The translations under genes were made by a program, and so were the position numbers. A DNA stretch of 25,810 nt from positions 1-25,810 of the IMG/VR virus record IMGVR_UViG_3300017987_000330. The stretch is one strand, 5' to 3'. The stretch is from a virus. This document shows positions 849 to 19,025 of this stretch, one piece after another (position 1 is the first letter of the stretch; each line of letters opens with the position of its first letter). The notes under the pieces were generated by a model. It did not search any database. It worked only from the letters and a program-made list of their open reading frames with translations, and was not told the origin of the DNA.

Positions 849-2760
849 GGCGGATCGGTCAAAGACGATGCAGGACAGGCTCTCCGGTTACACGCGGGAG
901 ATGATCCTGCCGATTCGTAACGACCTGGATCTCAAGCACGCTAGGGCCCTCCTTGAAATATTCGACTCGGCGCCGGCCTGGTCGCGCAGAAAGGCGGTGG
1001 CCAGGGGCGAGATCGTGGATGCCTTCAGCGTATTTTCAAAAGGCATGAAGCTTACCGAGGCGAAAGAGTTGTTCGTCAACCGCTATAATACGAACAACAA
1101 CCACCTGGGTATATCGGATAAGACCTATAAGATATATGAAAAAATCAGCCGGCCGAGCCTGGACCTGTGGCGTTCAAGAAAGAAGGAAATGGGCCTGGCC
1201 GGCTTACTTGAATCCACAACCAGGGGAAAGCCGCACGGCAGGATCACCCCTGAGATGCATCATTATATAATAGGTATAATTTCCCGGCGACCCCAAACGC
1301 GGCCTGCCAGGGTTTACGACTACCTGGTCAATAAGTTTTCCTCCAGTCAAACCACCCTACCCTCCGAAACAACTATAAGACGGCATATAAATAAATGGAT
1401 AAAGGAGAACGGCAGCGCGTTCGCCTTTATGAAGAATCCCGACCAGTGGCGGAGCGCCCGGCAGGCCGCGTTTGGGGACGCCGGGGAGAAGGCCCTGCAC
1501 TTTTTACATATAATTGAGTTCGACAATACGCCTGCGGACATCCTGTGCGCGGACAAGAAACGCTACACGATCACGGCCGGCATCGATATGTTCAGCCGTA
1601 AGGCTAAATGCCTGGTCGTTCCGGTATCCAGGAGCGTGGCCGTAGCCGGACTGATGCGATGGATGATCCTTAACTGGGGGCTCTTCGACGTGATGATCGC
1701 GGATAATGGAAAGGATTATGCCTCAAAACATATCGAGGCGGTCTGCGGCGCCTTAGGCATAGAGCTGCCACCCGTACCCGCTTTCAGCCCGGAGAAAAAA
1801 CCTTTTGTGGAGCGATTCTTTAGGACGCTTTCAACTATGCTTTTCGAGGAATTAGACGGCTATATCGGCCACAATGTGGCCGAGAGGAAAGCGATTGAAA
1901 GCAGAAAGTCCTTTGCGCAGCGCATGTTCGACAGAGATGAGACGATCGAGTGCCGGATGATGCCCGATGAGCTCCAGGAGGTTGTCGACACCTGGGTTGA
2001 GAAGGTCTATCACCAGCGAAAACACGGTGAGCTCGGCAAAAGCCCGAACGAACGGGCTGGAGAGAGCGCCGGGGCCGTACGCAAAATCCTTGATGAGCGC
2101 GTGCTCGACATCCTGCTCGCACCGATCGGGAAGCCGACGGTCGGAAAGAAGGGTATCCGTTACCGGAACGGCTACTATGCTGCAATAGAGCTGGCCGGAC
2201 ATATTGGGGAGAGGGTCCAGATCAGGCAGGATCTCGCCGATGCGGGCAGGCTTTATGTCTTCAACGAGGCCTCTAAATTTATCTGCATTGCCCGGGATGC
2301 GGCGCTCGAAGGCATCTCGGTAGAGGATGCCAATCGCGCACGGAGGAGACAGAAAAAACAGATCAAACAGCAGGTGCAGGCGTTTAAAACCCTGGCGGAA
2401 GGCGTGGGGGATCCGATGGCCGAGCTTTTGGAGGCCAGGCGAACCTCATCGGGCCAGGTCATCAACTTTAATCGCGAGGAGATATTCGAGAACGAGACCG
2501 TAAGGCAGGCGAAAAAGGCCGGCATGCCGCATAAGCCCATCGAGACATTTGTACCGGATCCGCCGATTGCGGCGGAGAAGGCCGACAAGGTCGTGCCGAT
2601 CCGGGAGGAGGAGCCCTTTTTCGAGAGCCGTCTTGCGCGGTACAAACACATCAGTCAACAGGAGAAGATCCGCGAGCTTACCGATATAGAGAAGGCCTTT
2701 AAGGAGGGTTACGAGGGAAGCGAGGAATACTACAAGATATTTGTGATGCCTTTTAAATAG
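841..2760 (+). CDS. MuA-like DDE transposase
   Basis: A 639-residue transposase, close in size to MuA (663). The N-terminal 200 residues hold helix-turn-helix DNA-binding segments ('SRRKAVARGEIVDAF', 'KTYKIYEKISRPSLDLW', 'SETTIRRHINKWI'). The RNase H-like catalytic core spans about 220-390. Likely catalytic residues are D228 (IEFDNTPAD), D288 (IADNGKDY) and E324 (KPFVERFFRTL), giving a DD35E spacing. A Mu-type C-terminal beta-barrel follows at about 420-490 (GIRYRNGYYAAIEL). The last 150 residues are charged and would contact the ATPase partner. It carries out strand transfer for integration and replicative transposition. The ATPase gene starts 8 nt downstream, as in Mu. Confidence 0.93.
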   Translation: MTEADRSKTMQDRLSGYTREMILPIRNDLDLKHARALLEIFDSAPAWSRRKAVARGEIVDAFSVFSKGMKLTEAKELFVNRYNTNNNHLGISDKTYKIYEKISRPSLDLWRSRKKEMGLAGLLESTTRGKPHGRITPEMHHYIIGIISRRPQTRPARVYDYLVNKFSSSQTTLPSETTIRRHINKWIKENGSAFAFMKNPDQWRSARQAAFGDAGEKALHFLHIIEFDNTPADILCADKKRYTITAGIDMFSRKAKCLVVPVSRSVAVAGLMRWMILNWGLFDVMIADNGKDYASKHIEAVCGALGIELPPVPAFSPEKKPFVERFFRTLSTMLFEELDGYIGHNVAERKAIESRKSFAQRMFDRDETIECRMMPDELQEVVDTWVEKVYHQRKHGELGKSPNERAGESAGAVRKILDERVLDILLAPIGKPTVGKKGIRYRNGYYAAIELAGHIGERVQIRQDLADAGRLYVFNEASKFICIARDAALEGISVEDANRARRRQKKQIKQQVQAFKTLAEGVGDPMAELLEARRTSSGQVINFNREEIFENETVRQAKKAGMPHKPIETFVPDPPIAAEKADKVVPIREEEPFFESRLARYKHISQQEKIRELTDIEKAFKEGYEGSEEYYKIFVMPFK

Positions 2761-2768
2761 GAGCGTAG

Positions 2769-3455
2769 ATGAAAAACGTATTTGCGATGACAGACAATTC
2801 CGAGCTTTTCGTTGTCCTAGCTGAATCATTAATGAAACGCGACCGGGGTGTGGACGGTATGGGGCTGGTGTTCGGGGAACCGGGCTTAGGAAAGTCCCGC
2901 ACGGCCATATGGTATGCGGACAAAGCCAATGCGGTATATTTCCGGGCTAAAGAGCACACGACCATGCGATCGTTACTGGAAGGCCTGGTCGTAGAACTGG
3001 GGCAGGCTCCCGTGTATCGCACGTCCGAGCTGTATGCGCAAGCCCTAGCGAGCCTAAGGGAAAACCCCAGATTGGTGATTGTAGATGAGATCGATTATCT
3101 CGCCACGAAAGGTAAGGGCCTTCAGACACTTAGGGACCTGGCCGACGAGACCAGCGCGCCGGTCCTGATGATCGGTATGATGGATGCGGAGCGCAAGGTA
3201 GCGCGATTCCGGCATCTCTACGACCGGCTCCAGGCGCATATCCTGCGGTTTAAGCCGCTTGAGGCGGAGGACGCCAAGCGTTTCTGCGAGCAGCTCTGCG
3301 ACGTAAAGCTGGATGATGCGGCAATAACCGAGATCAGCCGGCGTACAAATGGAAGGCTTAGGAAGATTATCGCGGAGATCTACCGGGCCGAGAAGATCGC
3401 CAAGGCGAATGATCTCAAGAAGATCGAATTCAAACATATCAAGCGGGCGGCATAG
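2769..3455 (+). CDS. MuB-like AAA+ ATPase, transposition target selector
   Basis: A 228-residue AAA+ ATPase. Walker A is GEPGLGKS (residues 36-43) and Walker B is 'RLVIVDEIDYL' (D106, E107). In Mu, MuB forms ATP-dependent filaments on DNA, picks target sites, stimulates MuA and gives target immunity; TnsC and IstB relatives act likewise. This protein is shorter than MuB (312) and lacks MuB's N-terminal helix-turn-helix extension, since the P-loop begins almost at once. A separate winged-helix protein is encoded immediately downstream in the same reading frame, separated only by TAG ACG before its ATG. Ribosome site: GGAG at 2760-2763, 5 nt before the ATG. Confidence 0.9.
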   Translation: MKNVFAMTDNSELFVVLAESLMKRDRGVDGMGLVFGEPGLGKSRTAIWYADKANAVYFRAKEHTTMRSLLEGLVVELGQAPVYRTSELYAQALASLRENPRLVIVDEIDYLATKGKGLQTLRDLADETSAPVLMIGMMDAERKVARFRHLYDRLQAHILRFKPLEAEDAKRFCEQLCDVKLDDAAITEISRRTNGRLRKIIAEIYRAEKIAKANDLKKIEFKHIKRAA

Positions 3456-3458
3456 ACG

Positions 3459-3977
3459 ATGGACCAAGCGATACCCTTTGCTGAACAGGCGCGCCGGGCA
3501 GCCAGAAGGCTCGGGCGGTTTACCTCGCAGGATCTCGAAAACGAGCTTCCTGTAAATGATTATGCGGACCGCCAAAAGATCCGATGGACGATCCACGACT
3601 TTTTAAAGCGCGGGGAGGCGGTGCGAGTAGACCGGGGCATCTATCAATACAAGCATATCCAGAAACGGGTGACCTACAGGCAACGCCTATGGAATGCGGC
3701 CAGGAGGATGAAGGGGCCGGAGTTTACGCTCGGAGACCTCGAGCAGCTCACCGGGATTGCCTACAAGACCATACAGGAGTTCTGCGGGTGGCTGGTGAGC
3801 GGCGGATATGCCGAGCGTATCGAGCCGGGAATATTCAAGCGCACCTGCGAGTACCCGCCCCTGGTGCCCCAGGACGCAAGGAAGAACCAGCGCCTGGCCG
3901 ACTGGCGCAGGCGGCTTAATAAGATCGGGCAGATGATTGAGGACCTGGCCGAGGAGATGACTGATGAGGAAGAATAG
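3459..3977 (+). CDS. Double winged-helix protein next to the transposition ATPase
   Basis: A 172-residue protein with two apparent winged-helix segments. The first (about 18-66) runs from 'FTSQDLENELPVNDYADRQKIRWTIHDFLKRGEAVRVDRGIYQY'. The second (about 85-130) includes 'FTLGDLEQLTGIAYKTIQEFCGWLVSGGYAERIEPGIFK'. The tail is a charged helix. It probably binds DNA; a role in transposition or early regulation is inferred from its place directly after the MuB-like gene. The upstream ribosome site is poor, so it is probably translated by coupling or reinitiation after the ATPase stop. The two ORFs share a frame across a single TAG. It could supply the DNA-binding module missing from the short MuB-like protein, but this is speculative. 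Confidence 0.6.
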   Translation: MDQAIPFAEQARRAARRLGRFTSQDLENELPVNDYADRQKIRWTIHDFLKRGEAVRVDRGIYQYKHIQKRVTYRQRLWNAARRMKGPEFTLGDLEQLTGIAYKTIQEFCGWLVSGGYAERIEPGIFKRTCEYPPLVPQDARKNQRLADWRRRLNKIGQMIEDLAEEMTDEEE

Positions 3978-4107
3978 AAAAAAGTCGGAAGGCGAGATAA
4001 AGATTTTCCTGGCTGGCATGGCCATAGTGCTCAGAGATATGTCCAGGGAGCTCACGAAGATCTATGACGGCATGTTCACCGAGGAGAGAGGTAATGCAAA
4101 TAAATAG
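3964..4107 (+). CDS. Small early protein of unknown function
   Basis: A 47-residue ORF starting inside the end of the winged-helix gene. The start ATG at 3964 follows GAGGAG (3951-3956) at about 7 nt. The product begins MRKNRKKSEGEIKIF and continues as one amphipathic helix (AGMAIVLRDMSRELTKIYDGMF). No family is recognised. The overlap and ribosome site make it a plausible real gene of the early operon. Confidence 0.5.
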   Translation: MRKNRKKSEGEIKIFLAGMAIVLRDMSRELTKIYDGMFTEERGNANK

Positions 4108-4111
4108 ACCC

Positions 4112-4120
4112 GGGGGGGGG
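4112..4120 (+). repeat. Homopolymer tract of nine G
   Basis: Nine consecutive G residues lie between a stop at 4107 and the possible GTG start at 4122. Such tracts can vary in length during replication. Here it lies in the untranslated gap, so length change would alter the spacing or strength of a ribosome site rather than a reading frame. Confidence 0.6.
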
Positions 4121-4121
4121 C

Positions 4122-5603: not shown

Positions 5604-6298
5604 AGGCATCGGACCTGGGTATAGATATCAAGACCGGATATCACGACAGGCGGCTTACGGCAGTCGAAAGTAAGTTTTTGGGAGTCCTGTGGACAGACCA
5701 TGTGGGTCAGGGCAAAAAAATCCCGGCGGATACCATTGCCCTGCGATGCTTTTCCGGGATGGATCCGGACAAGATCTATTCTAATTTCTATACACCGTCT
5801 AAAGAGCTCAACCAGAACATAGAATACTGGAAGCGCGAGGTCAGGATCATTCATAATCATTTATTGCGCGATCACAGCAACATCCCGGTGCTTTCCAAGG
5901 CAGGCAGCGGCGGCGGGTACTGGATAGCGGGAAGCGAGGCCGAGGCGGAAGAGTTTTATGCCACCTTCAGGAAGCGCGGGCTCACGGGCCTGGTCAAGGC
6001 CACCCGGGGAAAGCAGGCGGCGGTCGTAGAGGCCGTGCAGCAGCTGGTGTTCGAGTTCGAGGACCTGGTCGACCAGACGGGCTTTACGTCATACATTAAG
6101 CCGCGGGTGGCGGCGCCGATGGCGCCGGAAATCGTGGATGCGCTCCTGGAGAAGATGACCATGAATCCCGAAAAATTTGCAGATGGTTTAAGAAAAATAG
6201 GCGAAAAGTACGGATCCGTGCTGCTTCCCAGGGCCACGGTGGCGGCCATGCAGGCCAAGGCCAGGGAGCTCCAGGAGATGGCGGCGGGGCTGAGCTAA
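5600..6298 (+). CDS. Early phage protein with possible winged-helix segment, unknown function
   Basis: A 232-residue protein, translationally coupled to the previous gene by an ATGA overlap. The segment at about 65-112 (VRIIHNHLLRDHSNIPVLSKAGSGGGYWIAGSEAEAEEF) resembles a winged-helix ending in a beta-wing: 'GGGYWIA' is typical of phage host-range or replication regulators with such folds. The C-terminal half is helical and Ala-rich. A regulatory or DNA-binding role is an inference. The following 23 bp to the HD-domain gene contain a good ribosome site for that gene, and base composition changes there. Confidence 0.6.
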   Translation: MKASDLGIDIKTGYHDRRLTAVESKFLGVLWTDHVGQGKKIPADTIALRCFSGMDPDKIYSNFYTPSKELNQNIEYWKREVRIIHNHLLRDHSNIPVLSKAGSGGGYWIAGSEAEAEEFYATFRKRGLTGLVKATRGKQAAVVEAVQQLVFEFEDLVDQTGFTSYIKPRVAAPMAPEIVDALLEKMTMNPEKFADGLRKIGEKYGSVLLPRATVAAMQAKARELQEMAAGLS

Positions 6299-6986: not shown

Positions 6987-7718
6987 ATGAACGTCATTTA
7001 TGAGCCTAAGGGCAAGGCCAGGGAATACGCGGAACTGGCAATCAATCTTTATAAAGGCTGCGAGCACAGGTGCCGATATTGCTATGGTGCGAGGGGGCCT
7101 TACATACCTGCGGATAGATACTATGGGTCTGCAAGCCCCAAGGCTCATGTTATCGAAAGGTTAAAAAAGGACTGTAATAAACTAAATGGGCAGTGCCCAG
7201 AGATCCTGCTAAGCTTCCTGGGCGACGTGTATCAACCTGCTGAGATGGAATTGTGCCTGACAAGGCAAACCATTGAGATGTTGATCAAGCATAATTTGCC
7301 TTTCACTATACTAACTAAGGGCGGAACAAGGGCTGCGCGAGACTTCGATCTCCTTGCAAGTTATCCAAAAGCCAGGTTTGGCACCACGTTGATATTCCTC
7401 AACCAGGGAGACGCGGAACACTGGGAGCCGGGTGCGGCGTCCATTACGGACAGGGTTGAAGCTATCAGGCAGGCACATGAGAGAGGCATCAAGACATGGA
7501 TATCATTGGAACCTGTCATTGATCCAGCACAAGCACTACAGATCGTTCGCGAGCTATATCCTATCGTGGATCACTGGAAGGTTGGGAAGATCAACTATCA
7601 CCATAACATTGAGCGCGCGGTTGACTGGGCCGGCTTTCGGCTTGCTGTGACGGCGCTATTGGATTCACTTGGTGCGGACTATTATTTGAAAAGAAGCCTG
7701 TATAAGTATGATTCGTGA
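6987..7718 (+). CDS. Radical SAM protein of the SPL/Rv2578c-like type
   Basis: A 243-residue protein. 'NLYKGCEHRCRYCYG' carries the CX3CX2C motif (C25, C29, C32) that binds the [4Fe-4S] cluster and S-adenosylmethionine. 'LLSFLGDVYQPAE' and 'LTKGGTRAARDFDLL' fit the partial TIM barrel of the family that includes spore photoproduct lyase and Rv2578c-like proteins. The Cys spacing and length fit this small group. The substrate is unknown; DNA repair or nucleic-acid modification is possible from relatives. It has an AAGGAA ribosome site just before ATG 6987. A weak CACCC/GGGTG hairpin lies in the gap upstream (6930-6952). Expression with the HD-domain gene is likely. Confidence 0.8.
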   Translation: MNVIYEPKGKAREYAELAINLYKGCEHRCRYCYGARGPYIPADRYYGSASPKAHVIERLKKDCNKLNGQCPEILLSFLGDVYQPAEMELCLTRQTIEMLIKHNLPFTILTKGGTRAARDFDLLASYPKARFGTTLIFLNQGDAEHWEPGAASITDRVEAIRQAHERGIKTWISLEPVIDPAQALQIVRELYPIVDHWKVGKINYHHNIERAVDWAGFRLAVTALLDSLGADYYLKRSLYKYDS

Positions 7719-7733
7719 AGGCGATTGTGAAGG

Positions 7734-8162
7734 ATGGGATTAACAAGAAAACAGCTCGCAATCATCCATATTGCCAAGAAGTCTCTGGCGTTGGATGATG
7801 ACACCTACCGCGACGCATTGTATGCCCACGGCGGCGCGAGAAGCGCGAAACACCTATCTCTCCGGGGCTTTGATGCGGTGATGAGGCACTTTAAAGCCTG
7901 CGGGTTTAGAGAGCAGGAACGAGGGCCGAGGAGAAAAGAACCAGGAAAAGACAGGCCGGGGTTTGCGAGTGAGGGGCAGCTTAAGAAGGTCTATGCGTCC
8001 TGGTGGTCTCTGGCCGGCACGTATTACACGAAAGGCAAAGAGCTTAAGGCGTTGAGGGCGTTTTTAAAGAAGCGGTTCCGGGTGGACCACGAGAATTTTT
8101 TAGACGCACAGACGGCACGCAAGGTGATTGAGGCGATAAAAAGGATACAGCAAAGACGGTGA
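7734..8162 (+). CDS. gemA: GemA-like (Mu gp16 family) regulatory protein
   Basis: A 142-residue protein that matches the GemA/gp16 family (DUF1018). The N-terminus 'RKQLAIIHIAKKSLALDDDTYRDALYAHGGARSAKHLSLRGFDAVMRHFKACGF' is characteristic, as is the C-terminal 'FLKKRFRVDHENFLDAQTARKVIEAIKRI'. In Mu, GemA affects host gene expression and DNA relaxation; its molecular role is not settled. It is commonly encoded late in the early/middle region of Mu-like phages, as here. An in-frame stop at 7728-7730 fixes the start at ATG 7734. The ribosome site is poor. No Mor or C late activator gene is visible nearby, although Mu has mor just after this position. Confidence 0.88.
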   Translation: MGLTRKQLAIIHIAKKSLALDDDTYRDALYAHGGARSAKHLSLRGFDAVMRHFKACGFREQERGPRRKEPGKDRPGFASEGQLKKVYASWWSLAGTYYTKGKELKALRAFLKKRFRVDHENFLDAQTARKVIEAIKRIQQRR

Positions 8163-10617: not shown

Positions 10618-12184
10618 ACCGGCGATTAAGCTCACTGAATACCAGAAAAACTGGGTCAATGACAAGAGTCGTTTCAAGATCGGCGTCTTGACCCGGCAGG
10701 GCGGAAAGTCCTTTGAGACGTCGCTCGAGGCCGTACTCGATTGCCTGGAAGAAAAGACCCTGTGGGTGTTTCTCTCAGCCGGCGAGCGGCAGAGCAAGGA
10801 ACTGATGAGCAAGGCGGCCATACATGCCCGGGCCACCGGGAAGATCATCGAGGAGATCGAAGGCGAGTTCTTTGTAGACAAAGACACCAAATACAAACAG
10901 CTGGAGATCGTTTTTCCGAACGAGGCCAGGATTATCGGGCTGCCGGCCAACCCGGACACGGCCCGCGGGTGGAGCGCCAACATCCTGCTCGACGAATTCG
11001 CGCTTCACCGGGACAGCCGCGAGATCTGGAAGGCGCTCTTTCCGACCGTAACGCGGGGCTACAAGATCCGGATCGTGAGCACGTTCAAGGGCAAGATGAA
11101 CAAGTTTTACGAGCTTTTCTACGGCGCCCCAACGCTACAGAGCTATACCGGCCGCGAGTATAAGTACGTGGGCGATCGCGGCGGGTGGAGCAAGCATTTT
11201 ACGGATATATACCAGGCCATCGAGATGGGCCTCGAGCTCAAAGACGAGGAAGGAAAGCCGATCGAGCCGGACGACCTCAGGCTGGCCCTGAATGACGACG
11301 ACGCCTGGGCCGAGGAGTTCGAGTGCGTCCCGTCCGACGAGGTCTCGGCATTCCTGACGCACGACCTGATCTCCTCTGTCGAAGACGTCAAGATCAACAA
11401 GACGCCCGTTTGGGTGGAAAGGCTCATAGCCGCAGCCGAGGCCAACTATTCGGAGTTCAAACGCACTAAAATCAGGCCCGCCCTGCCCCTCCACGTCCTC
11501 CACAATGTCGAATTCCTGGGTGAGCTATACATTGGTATGGATATCGGCCGGAAAAAGGATCTCACGGTCATCTGGGTAGACCAGAAGATCGACGGCATGT
11601 TGCGGGCGGCCGCGGTCATAGAGCTCAAGCGCAAGCCGTATTTCGTGCAGGAACAGGTGCTTCATAGCGTGCTGAGCCAAAAGGCCTTTAGGAGGGCCTG
11701 CATTGACGAGACCGGTATCGGCGCGCAGCTGGCCGAGGGCGCCCAGGACATGTTCGGATCCTACCGGGTCGAGGGCATTCCGTTTACGGCGGAGAGCAAA
11801 GAGACCCTGGCCGTGGGTCTCAGGCAGAACTTCGAGGACAGGGGCAGCCTGATCCCGGCGGACGTGACGATCCGCAACTCGCTTCACAGTGTTAAGAAAT
11901 ACCCGACCACGACCCGGCATTTCCGGTTTGATGCGGAGCGCACGGACGCGACCGGCCATGCGGATCATTTCTGGGCCAAGGCCCTGAGCGTGCAGTCCGC
12001 GGGCGGCAGGGCCGGCCCGATCGCATATGGCGGCTACGATCCGGAGCCGGCAAAAAGAGTCATGGAAGAGGCCCGGCGCTCGGCGGACAGGTCCCGGCTT
12101 GACAGGGCCGAAGAAGATGCAGGCCCGGGACGGATGTTCGGCCGGGGCATGGGCCGGATGATGCGGAGGATGATGAATGGCTAA
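10604..12184 (+). CDS. Mu gp28-like large terminase
   Basis: A 526-residue packaging motor. The ATPase has a Walker A variant RQGGKS (31-36) and Walker B ILLDEF (D130, E131), followed by 'IVSTFKGKMNKFYELF' as coupling motif. The RNase H-like nuclease follows, with acidic residues D313 (GMDIGRKKDLTVIWV), D368 (CIDETGIG) and D454 (HADHFWAKAL). This order is typical of Mu gp28 and other phage terminases. It drives DNA into the prohead and cuts it headful-style beside host flanks in Mu-like phages. The C-terminal tail is Arg/Met/Gly-rich. The stop overlaps the portal start by 8 nt. Confidence 0.92.
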   Translation: MGSSEPAIKLTEYQKNWVNDKSRFKIGVLTRQGGKSFETSLEAVLDCLEEKTLWVFLSAGERQSKELMSKAAIHARATGKIIEEIEGEFFVDKDTKYKQLEIVFPNEARIIGLPANPDTARGWSANILLDEFALHRDSREIWKALFPTVTRGYKIRIVSTFKGKMNKFYELFYGAPTLQSYTGREYKYVGDRGGWSKHFTDIYQAIEMGLELKDEEGKPIEPDDLRLALNDDDAWAEEFECVPSDEVSAFLTHDLISSVEDVKINKTPVWVERLIAAAEANYSEFKRTKIRPALPLHVLHNVEFLGELYIGMDIGRKKDLTVIWVDQKIDGMLRAAAVIELKRKPYFVQEQVLHSVLSQKAFRRACIDETGIGAQLAEGAQDMFGSYRVEGIPFTAESKETLAVGLRQNFEDRGSLIPADVTIRNSLHSVKKYPTTTRHFRFDAERTDATGHADHFWAKALSVQSAGGRAGPIAYGGYDPEPAKRVMEEARRSADRSRLDRAEEDAGPGRMFGRGMGRMMRRMMNG

Positions 12185-13670
12185 CCTACGCGAAAAGGTA
12201 GCACGCTTACTTGCGCCCGACCTGATGAACGAAGGCCAGGTCAAGGCGCTCGTAAAACAAGAGGTCGCGGCGGCCCGCCAGGCCATGCCCATCTCGCTCG
12301 ACTACGACCCCAAGAACGAAGGCTACCGCCGGATATCCGGCCAGGGCCAGGAAAACGCGCGAAGGGATCTCTCCCCCCTAAGCCAGGACCTGATGCTGGA
12401 GCTCGCCTATTATCTCTATGACTCGAGCGGCCTAGTCAAGCGCTTTGTGCGCGATACCAAGAACTTCGTGCTGGGTGAGGGTATCACCTATGAGGTGGAC
12501 AATGACGACAAGGAAGAGGCCAAGGGCGTGCTGGACGATTTCTGGAACGATTCGATCAATGCGCTGGACCTCCGCCTCGAAAAAAAGATTGAGTTTCTGG
12601 GGCTTCTGGGCGAGCAGTGCTGGCCCGTGGCCGTAAATCAGCACACGGGCAAGGTGTGGCTCAGCTATGTGGACCCGGTAAATATCGATCGCGTCTCGAC
12701 GCTCCGGGATTTTCCCGAGATAGCCGGCCAGATCAGGCTCAAGGGCACGGCCGGAAGGACCGGGAAAAAGATCCAGGTGATCCGGGAGGAGACCAACCCC
12801 ATGATGGCCGAGCACGGCAGGCTCGTGGGCGATTGCTTTTATTTTACCGTGAACAATCCGCCAAACGGCCCCAGGGGCAGGAGCGACCTCATTCATCTTT
12901 TTGATTTCATCAACGGGTTCGAGGAGGGCCTGTTCGACGAGCTCGACAGGATCAAGCTCATCAAGTCGTTCGTCTGGGATGTATCGCTCGAGGGCGCAAC
13001 GGACGAGGAGATTAAAGAATTTCTCAGGAACAATAAAACGCCCTAGGCCGGCAGCGTGCGGGCGCATAACGAACGAGTCAAGTGGGAGGCGGTCACGCCC
13101 GACATGAAACACTCGGACAACAAGGCCCTATTCGATCTGATGAAGACTTATCTGGCGGCCTGCGCGAACCGGCCGGACAGCTGGCTGGGCGCGGGCGGCA
13201 AGGCCTACCAGACCGAGGCCGATCTCATGGGCGAGCCCACGTTCAAGGACCTGGGAAGCCGGCAGCGCTATGTCAAGTATATGCTCGAGCATGTGCTCAA
13301 GTTCGCACTGGACCAGGCGATCTTGCACGGCGTGCTGAGGGAGAATGAAAAAAAGCCGTTCTCCGTCACCGTGAACATGCCCGAGATGCAGACAAAGGAC
13401 CTCAAGAAGACCGTGGACGGCCTGTTTACCCTGGCGCAGTCCCTGATGATTGCCGAGACGAGCGGCTGGATCACGGCCGAGACCGCGAGCAAGGTGTATG
13501 CCAGCATGGCCGGCCAGGTGGGCATCGAGATCGACGCGGCCGAAGAGATCAAAACCGCCGCAAGGAAGGCGGGCGATAAGGTAACGGAAGACTACGCGGC
13601 GCGCGAGGCGGTCATAGAGCAAGTCGTGGCGCGACTTGAGAAGAAAAACCCCCGGCTGAGAGTCGCATGA
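12177..13670 (+). pseudogene. Portal protein interrupted by an in-frame TAG
   Basis: The frame runs from ATG 12177 to TGA 13668-13670 with a single TAG at 13044-13046. Upstream are 289 residues with portal features (LVKRFVRDTKNFVLGEG, 'VDPVNIDRVSTLRDF', 'RGRSDLIHLFDFINGFEEGLFDELDRIKLIKSFVWDV'). Downstream codons continue the same protein (AGSVRAHNERVKWEAVTPDMK...). The full product would be about 497 residues, a usual portal size. No ribosome site lies before the next possible start (GTG 13056). The portal is the 12-fold DNA gateway and is essential, so the TAG either inactivates the phage, is suppressed, or is a sequencing error. It ends in an ATGA overlap with the next gene. Confidence 0.8.
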
Positions 13671-14530
13671 CCCGGAGAGAGCAGGCATATAACCGGCGGC
13701 TCAAGGAGCTGATCAAAAAGACGGACAGGCTCGCGGATAGAGAAGTCGAAAAGGTGCTGGGATTTCTCGAGCAGGCAAGGTCCGAAGTGGCGGCCCGGGT
13801 CGCATCGACCGAGTGGCAGGCGCATTACATCCCGGAGCTCAAGGAGGCTGTTGAAAGGGCGATCGAGGCATTCAGGCAGCGGTATTCGGCAGGGCAGAAA
13901 GAGGGTCTGGCCAACATCTGGAACGCCGGAATAGACAGTATCGACGCGCCGCTTCAGTATGCCGGGATCAGAAGCGGCGCCCCCGAGATATCGCGGACCG
14001 TGCTCGAGGTGATGCAGGGATATTCCGCCGATCTGATCAACGGGCTCTCATCGGATGCGGTCAAGAAGATCAACAGCGAGCTCGTTCTCGGCGTGATGGG
14101 CGGAAAAACGCCCTATGAGACCATGAAGGCGATCGGCCGGAGCCTGGACGAAAAGAGCGTATTCAAGAGCCTGGGTCATAGGGCCGAGGCCATCACGCGC
14201 ACGGAGATGGCCCGCGTGAACAGCGCGGCCCGGGAGGCCCGGATGCAGGCGACGGCGGAGGCCGGCACCGAGCCTGCCATGAAGTGGCAGAAGAAATGGA
14301 TCGCATCGGGCAAGGCGCACCCCAGGGAAAACCATGCGGCACTTGATGGCAAGATCGTGGATGTCAACGAGGATTTTCCGGGGGGCATCCCCTACCCGCA
14401 TGCACCGGGGCTTCCGGCCAAGGAGGTCGTCCAGTGCGGCTGAACGCACGTGCTGACTTCTCCGGACTGGGAGGAGCTGCCCAAGACATGGGAGGCGGTG
14501 CCTTACCAGGAGCGGGCCATTTATGATTAA
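13667..14530 (+). CDS. F-like head morphogenesis protein with in-frame UGA (possible Sec)
   Basis: A Mu F/SPP1 gp7-type head morphogenesis protein. The ORF proper stops at TGA 14441-14443 after 258 residues, ending KEVVQCG. Family members normally continue there with a Cys (CxC motif). Reading TGA as an amino acid adds 28 codons (THVLTSPDWEELPKTWEAVPYQERAIYD) to TAA 14528-14530, for 287 residues. The core features are present: 'AEAITRTEMARVNSAAREARM' and 'PRENHAALDGKIVDVNEDF...PYPHAPGLPAKEVVQC'. The codons after TGA look fully coding. A hairpin at 14457-14476 has SECIS-like placement. A selenocysteine reading is inferred; a point nonsense mutation from TGC is the alternative. Confidence 0.75.
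14457..14476 (+). promoter_or_regulatory. SECIS-like hairpin downstream of the in-frame UGA
   Basis: CTTCTCC (14457-14463) pairs with GGAGGAG (14470-14476) over 7 bp with one wobble, closing the 6-nt loop GGACTG. The stem starts 13 nt and the loop 20 nt after the UGA. Known bacterial SECIS elements (such as E. coli fdhF) place a short hairpin with G in the first loop positions at about this distance. No bulged U as in fdhF is seen. Function is inferred from geometry. Confidence 0.4.
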
Positions 14531-17942: not shown

Positions 17943-19025
17943 GTGAGGCTTTATCGTCCCATACTGCTTGCGGCCGTGCCGGGCCTGGTGTTCTGCATCG
18001 TGCCAGTGCCCGGCATCAGCCTGCGGCTTTCGTTTCAGCTGGCATCCATATGGCTGGCTGCGGCGGTATTTACGTCCGTGCTCACAAGCTGGTGGTGGAG
18101 AGCGTTTTTCGTGCTGGCGCTCGCCCAGGCGGTCTCCGAGGCGCCGGCACTACATGTTTACATGCCGCTCCTGATGATTGCCGTCTTTCTGGCGGCAGCC
18201 CAGGGATTCAGTAAAATCAGGCATGTTCAGGTCATGAACGCCATGCGTGTCGCGGCATTGATGCTCACCGCATGGATTGTCCTGCAAAGGCTCGGCGCTG
18301 TAACAGATTTCAATATGGGGAACCAGGTGGCGGGGCCTTTGAATGCCGACGCGGCGGGGGTATTTCTGGCCCTGTGCCTGCCGGCATTTATCCGTTACGG
18401 GCTGATCCCCCTGGCGGCAGTTGTCGTAATCGGCCTGTTTTTATGCGCCTCTACGACCGCCATGATTGCAGCATCAACGGGCATTGTTTTTTTTATATTC
18501 TTATGGAGATGGCCGGGGGTAACGGATTCCGGCGGTCGCTTCGCCATAAGGGCGATATCCTTAATGGTCGTGATAGCCGGCATGATGGTCTTCTTTCAGA
18601 TTTTCGACCCCATTGAAAACACGCTGCAGTGCCCCAGATGGCAGGCCTGGAAGCACATCGCATGGTCTTTCCGGTCCGAGGCGTTCGGCAGGGGGCTCGG
18701 ATCTTTTCAGGATATATTTCCGCTGCTGATCTCGGGAGACGCGCGGCTTTCTTCTATGGGCTGGTGGAAGCATGCGCATAACGAGTATCTGCAGGCCGCA
18801 TTCGAGATGGGGCTCCAGGTAATGGTCCTTATCGTCGCCTACCTTCTGGCCTTCGGCTATCGCGCCTGGCAAATAAGAAAGTCGCTTTCCCGGGAACAAT
18901 GTACTGTGATCGCCGGCATTACTACGCTGGCAGTATCGTGCCTCGGCTGGCATACGTTTCATGTCGCACCATTGGCGCTCCTGGGGGTTGCCTGGCTGGG
19001 CCTGGCACATAGGGAGATAATATGA
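17943..19025 (+). CDS. O-antigen ligase/polymerase-like membrane protein
   Basis: A 360-residue protein with about nine or ten hydrophobic segments. The periplasmic-loop motif 'FGRGLGSFQDIFP...WWKHAHNEYLQAAFEMGLQ' (HAHNEYL at 277-283) is the signature of the WaaL/Wzy (O-antigen ligase) family. Such enzymes join or polymerise surface polysaccharide at the periplasmic side of the inner membrane. In phages, related genes change host serotype and block re-infection. Placement inside the head operon is unusual. The start is GTG 17943 with no clear ribosome site; TAG CCG separates it from the previous ORF in the same frame. Its stop overlaps the next gene (ATGA). Confidence 0.75.
   Translation: MRLYRPILLAAVPGLVFCIVPVPGISLRLSFQLASIWLAAAVFTSVLTSWWWRAFFVLALAQAVSEAPALHVYMPLLMIAVFLAAAQGFSKIRHVQVMNAMRVAALMLTAWIVLQRLGAVTDFNMGNQVAGPLNADAAGVFLALCLPAFIRYGLIPLAAVVVIGLFLCASTTAMIAASTGIVFFIFLWRWPGVTDSGGRFAIRAISLMVVIAGMMVFFQIFDPIENTLQCPRWQAWKHIAWSFRSEAFGRGLGSFQDIFPLLISGDARLSSMGWWKHAHNEYLQAAFEMGLQVMVLIVAYLLAFGYRAWQIRKSLSREQCTVIAGITTLAVSCLGWHTFHVAPLALLGVAWLGLAHREII

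Follow-up and report, generated by a model that had tools for sequence, protein, structure and literature searches.

A putative selenocysteine codon with a SECIS-type hairpin in the Mu F-like head gene of a Mu-like phage and its relatives

Results and Discussion

The head gene at 13667–14530 (+ strand) of a Mu-like phage is very probably a selenoprotein gene, in which host SelB and tRNA-Sec, guided by a hairpin at 14457–14476, would insert selenocysteine (Sec) at an in-frame UGA at 14441. This gene and its homologues are best read as a new family of phage selenoproteins that share a C-x-U motif, although this reading comes from sequence alone, without selenium, peptide or mass-spectrometry data. 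The support consists of Sec/Cys exchange at the site, a SECIS-type hairpin that is tied to UGA, a tail under selection, and Sec machinery in two UGA-carrying bacterial genomes. It bears out the proposal in the first-pass annotation that a virion assembly protein may carry Sec and that this would be novel, with Sec insertion itself remaining an inference. That annotation considered a single phage, while the homologues indicate that the predicted Sec is a widespread trait of the family.

The phage and its head gene

The window, which is the whole stretch of DNA analysed here, is a 25,810-base virus record from a Mu-like phage encoding a transposase, GemA, a Mu F-like head protein and a capsid. 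The Mu-type DDE transposase (841–2760, + strand; Mu-transpos_C, 53 bits) marks the phage as Mu-like and, together with GemA (7734–8162, 96 bits) and head genes of Mu type (PF04233), meets what is expected of a member of the Mu-like transposable phages. Two other genes in the window are of note in their own right. An O-antigen ligase-like membrane protein (17943–19025; Wzy_C, 40 bits), which possibly alters the host surface, is encoded amid the structural genes, between the capsid/cement and head-tail genes. In the early/middle region, 6987–7718 encodes a radical SAM protein whose relatives are the PA0069/Rv2578c families and 'radical SAM mobile pair protein B'; every family match is below cut-off.

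The head protein matches PF04233 (Phage_Mu_F) with 45 bits, above the Pfam gathering cut-off of 29.6, and PHROG 2468, head morphogenesis, with an E of 1e-28; the reading of the gene through its UGA rests on homology across the codon. Against the SPP1 gp7 minor capsid model TIGR01641 it scores 29.6 bits, below the NCBIfam cut-off of 39.65, and is thus related in its domain without being a member, and no Sec-aware model for this protein was found in NCBIfam. The gene consists of 258 codons, the UGA (U259), 28 further codons and a TAA at 14528–14530, and reads ...AKEVVQCG-TGA-THVLTSPDWEELPKTWEAVPYQERAIYD-TAA. The first-pass description of KEVVQCG followed by TGA and 28 in-frame codons to TAA is therefore exact, with the proposed Sec codon at 14441–14443 (+ strand) as the last codon of a putative C-x-U motif, TGC GGC TGA (Cys257-Gly258-Sec259; 14435–14443, + strand). 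The same UGA is present in IMGVR_UViG_3300029258_001589 and 3300017989_002834, contigs of other metagenomes that match the region with 100% identity, so that an assembly error confined to a single sample is not the explanation.

The portal gene directly upstream (12177–13670, + strand) has an in-frame TAG at 13044–13046, given here as context only and outside the Sec claim. Its relatives have Lys, Arg, Glu, Pro, Asp or Gln at this position and none has a stop. Whether the TAG is a nonsense mutation, an error or, which is unlikely, a pyrrolysine codon is unconfirmed, as both identical contigs begin downstream of it. A six-frame search of the window for conserved read-through stops was swamped by wrong-frame matches, and a gene-by-gene check for others besides the UGA left only this portal TAG.

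The tail after the UGA

The 28 conserved codons after the UGA (14444–14527, + strand) are predicted to form a beta strand and a helix. When the UGA was entered as Cys, AlphaFold2 modelled the head protein and its tail with a pLDDT of 95.7 and a pTM of 0.91, with the post-UGA residues as strand and helix. Over the first 10 codons past the UGA, dN is 0.27 and dS is 1.01, compared with a dN of 0.11 and a dS of 1.88 over the 16 codons before it. On these estimates selection acts on the protein in the tail, and dS, too, falls after the UGA relative to the codons before it, which a hairpin there would require. The tail is conserved as far as RAIYD in UGA members and Cys members alike.

The tail is far longer in two UGA-containing MuF proteins, L028 (2–529, − strand) and L045 (876–1370, + strand), where the frame stays open for at least 177 and at least 165 codons beyond the UGA, respectively; these extensions have no Pfam match. 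For the window's head protein, a Foldseek structure search returned nothing below an E of 0.1, VIA-align found only helical-bundle resemblances, mostly over residues 1–204, and the sequence profile found no solved relative, the C-terminal part never having been queried separately.

Cysteine or UGA in homologues

In the 57 distinct homologues for which the codon could be resolved, it is TGA in 23, TGC in 22 and TGT in 12, with no other codon at all. The first-pass annotation had held that the family normally has Cys here, in a CxC motif, and this is borne out: the motif takes the forms C-G-C, C-S-C, C-R-C and C-H-C, the first Cys is invariant, and the UGA stands at the position of the second. 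Unrelated codons at this site, which would have refuted the proposal, are absent. Loci fetched without any UGA pattern give the same picture (8 TGA, 28 Cys, none other). Pattern scans of IMG/VR for the motif found 14 stretches with TGA and 12 with TGC or TGT, and none in which the same motif has TAA or TAG at the site. All 14 of the TGA stretches are the head gene, with the frame open after the UGA and a similar tail; more distant members came from a second pattern and from family searches. The relatives found first, 58–60% identical, mostly have Cys in a CGC motif, with UGA in one of them (L005).

A tree of 57 rows built on the part of the gene upstream of the codon has several clades in which UGA members alternate with Cys members. 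Eleven changes of codon state are most likely, of which at least four are forced by well-supported branches alone, so that Cys and the predicted Sec have been exchanged repeatedly. Outside these homologues, 6 matches to an HPNC(R/S)-TGA pattern turned up in 395 genomes; they appear to be due to chance, none having a MuF-like frame upstream. In these genomes there is thus no sign of UGA in the canonical HPNCRC-type MuF proteins, and the predicted Sec is so far restricted to the present sub-family.

A SECIS-type hairpin tied to UGA

The SECIS-like hairpin (14457–14476, + strand) is made up of CTTCTCC (14457–14463), a loop of GGACTG, in RNA GGACUG (14464–14469), and GGAGGAG (14470–14476), forming 7 bp. 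It starts 13 nt after the UGA with its loop at +20, exactly as first described. Bacterial SECIS elements have a G in the apical loop (PMC1088965). A hairpin was counted as SECIS-type if it had 5 or more pairs that reached a minimum pairing score, a G in the first two loop bases, and a loop between +16 and +26. Of the 23 UGA genes 21 satisfy this rule, as do 2 of 34 Cys genes (Fisher, 2.7e-11), whereas synonymous recodings of the UGA genes would be expected to meet it in 5.1 of 23, and in nearly all of the SECIS-type hairpins the loop starts at +20 to +23. The absence of a conserved hairpin in related phages would have told against Sec; the hairpin is instead kept in the UGA members and largely missing from the Cys members. 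Compared with their own synonymous recodings, the UGA genes fold with a mean z of −1.50 and a mean energy of −10.7 kcal/mol, and the Cys genes with a mean z of +0.29 and a mean energy of −5.6 kcal/mol, the z of hairpin stability differing between the two groups (Mann-Whitney, 9e-7).

The stems vary by lineage while their place and pairing are kept, as in CGTCGAG..CTCGACG (L073), CGCCCC..GGGGCG (L090) and TCACGCC..GGCGTGA (L078), the first of which is unrelated in sequence and yet of the same place and shape. Column covariation of the hairpin is weak, with few compensatory pairs and no significance against shuffles, because the register of the stem shifts by one or two bases, and the tests on synonymous codons and the Cys control were used in its stead. 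The 3' arm of the hairpin is partly fixed by the conserved D-W-E codons, and the Cys control and the synonymous null separate these effects only partly. An Rfam search at gathering cut-offs gave no match; bacterial SECIS vary too much for Rfam to call them clearly. On the homologue counts and the hairpin controls, the UGA at this site is far beyond chance.

One of the two exceptions among the Cys-encoding relatives, L044, has a strong SECIS-like hairpin in the same place (5769–5858). This may be a relic of a recent change from Sec to Cys, although this is an inference.

Selenium machinery in the genomes that carry the gene

Two UGA-carrying genomes were found to have Sec machinery; both were taken from the phylum to which a Syntrophobacterales MAG belongs. 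In G322 the UGA copy is on a 69 kb contig with genes for a GGDEF protein, a fatty-acid transporter, a carboxyl transferase, an amidase and a histidine kinase, and since these are ordinary bacterial genes the copy is a prophage in a bacterium. This genome has selA (602 bits), selB (346 bits) and tRNA-Sec (76 bits), over the curated cut-offs. G001 has selA (638 bits), selB (367 bits) and tRNA-Sec (79 bits), likewise over the cut-offs, but the contig of its phage is only 3.2 kb and the host assignment rests on binning. The first-pass annotation had called for a host with selA, selB, selC and selD; the first three, selC being the tRNA-Sec gene, are present in these two genomes, while selD was outside the search and the host of the window phage is unidentified.

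In a Verrucomicrobiales MAG with the Cys version (G003), neither selA nor selB was found over cut-off. Sec machinery is present in G004 and G345, and yet these carry Cys versions, so that the Sec genes of a host do not alone predict the codon.

A separate observation concerns contig C188 of G001, the MAG that holds L031. At 2306–4121 (L127, L083) a second SelB-like gene (347 bits) is immediately preceded by a second tRNA-Sec-like gene (52 bits), and the two genes are either a further pair for Sec-type decoding or the result of mixed binning.

Alternative explanations for the UGA

The extended protein could be made without selenium, if the UGA were read by a near-cognate tRNA or under a code reassigned to Trp, Gly or Cys. 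Such read-through would likewise conserve the tail, and other viruses are known to extend virion proteins by UGA readthrough. It would not account for homologues in which Cys is the only amino acid encoded at the site, without a single case of Trp, Gly or Arg, nor for a hairpin of SECIS type and placement that is tied to UGA, nor for the Sec machinery of the UGA-carrying bacterial genomes, and many genes of the window use UGA as a normal stop; this explanation is accordingly considered very unlikely. A global reassignment of UGA was rejected separately, as about 11 of the 29 called genes in the window end in TGA.

Sec insertion competes with termination in bacteria, and the short form of the head protein would stop just past the first Cys. 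It is conceivable, then, that the UGA mostly terminates and that the long form, with its Sec, is a minor and regulated product, giving a selenium-dependent switch between two head proteins. Little credence is given to such a switch, given that the Cys relatives make the long form only, that a strand and a helix of the predicted fold come from the tail, and that truncation in L028 and L045 would cost a further 165–177 residues.

The first-pass annotation had left standing a simple nonsense mutation and a hairpin that arose by chance. Such a mutation, in a prophage undergoing decay, needs only one base (TGC to TGA), and the portal gene of this phage has another in-frame stop missing from relatives. 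This explanation is effectively ruled out by the same UGA in 23 divergent homologues with no TAA or TAG version, by the lack of any stop within the upstream reading frame of any homologue and by purifying selection on the tail. An assembly error was also rejected, in view of the 23 divergent homologues and the two identical contigs.

Proposed mechanism and meaning

In the selenoprotein reading, host SelB with Sec-tRNA-Sec would bind the hairpin as the ribosome arrives at the UGA, and Sec would be inserted there to give a C-G-U motif near the C terminus of a 287-residue MuF-type head protein. Sec in place of Cys usually marks a reactive residue. The C-x-U may act as a redox pair, through a selenenylsulfide or a thiol/selenol switch, perhaps with the invariant His223, in assembly or maturation of the head. 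This redox role is an inference, and the invariant His and the two Cys/Sec residues could also bind metal.

We know of no role for the CxC motif in MuF head proteins. Its repeated Sec/Cys exchange suggests that it is chemically active and not merely structural, and its role becomes directly testable. The structure of these phages would be tied to host selenium metabolism, a full-length head protein would need a Sec-decoding host and be made in such cells only, and annotation pipelines truncate the head gene at the UGA. It is possible, though it can be put forward only tentatively, that a virion protein of many Mu-like phages has a Cys-x-Sec redox or metal site without which heads could not be assembled or matured or the genome delivered, that Cys is repeatedly exchanged for Sec and back when the phages pass from hosts that use selenium to hosts that do not and the reverse, and that host selenium metabolism thus limits host range.

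Comparison with known systems

The 119 prokaryotic selenoprotein families inventoried in 2026 include no phage, viral or PF04233 entry (PMC13188914), and phage are not mentioned in a 2022 review (PMC9312934) or in the 2025 deep-Sep paper (PMC12013277). No phage selenoprotein was found in the full-text literature searched, subscription papers and preprints being outside its scope. As far as could be seen, the predicted decoding is of a known bacterial kind and it is the carrier, a phage virion-assembly protein, that is new.

Among eukaryotic viruses, the poxvirus glutathione peroxidase is a selenoprotein, an enzyme captured from the host whose SECIS is of the eukaryotic 3'UTR kind. It is alike in being a virus gene that uses host Sec decoding, whereas the window gene is a phage virion-assembly gene with a SECIS of bacterial type. 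Closer in decoding are the bacterial selenoproteins with a SECIS right after the UGA (FdhF formate dehydrogenase, SelW-like and AhpD-like proteins), which share a UGA where relatives have Cys, a coding-region hairpin about 20 nt downstream with a G in a small apical loop, and Sec-decoding hosts. The window protein differs from these in belonging to phage head morphogenesis, being neither a host metabolic enzyme nor one with a thioredoxin fold. The CxU selenoproteins (rhodanese-like form 3, UshA-like and ferredoxin-thioredoxin reductase; PMC13188914, Table 1) share the Cys-x-Sec spacing, but differ from the head protein in family and function. The phage Mu F-like or MuF minor head proteins (PF04233, PHROG 2468) have the same domain, the same post-portal position and a CxC near the end, and the present sub-family is set apart from other MuF proteins by the codon for the second Cys of this motif, which in 23 of its 57 members is UGA.
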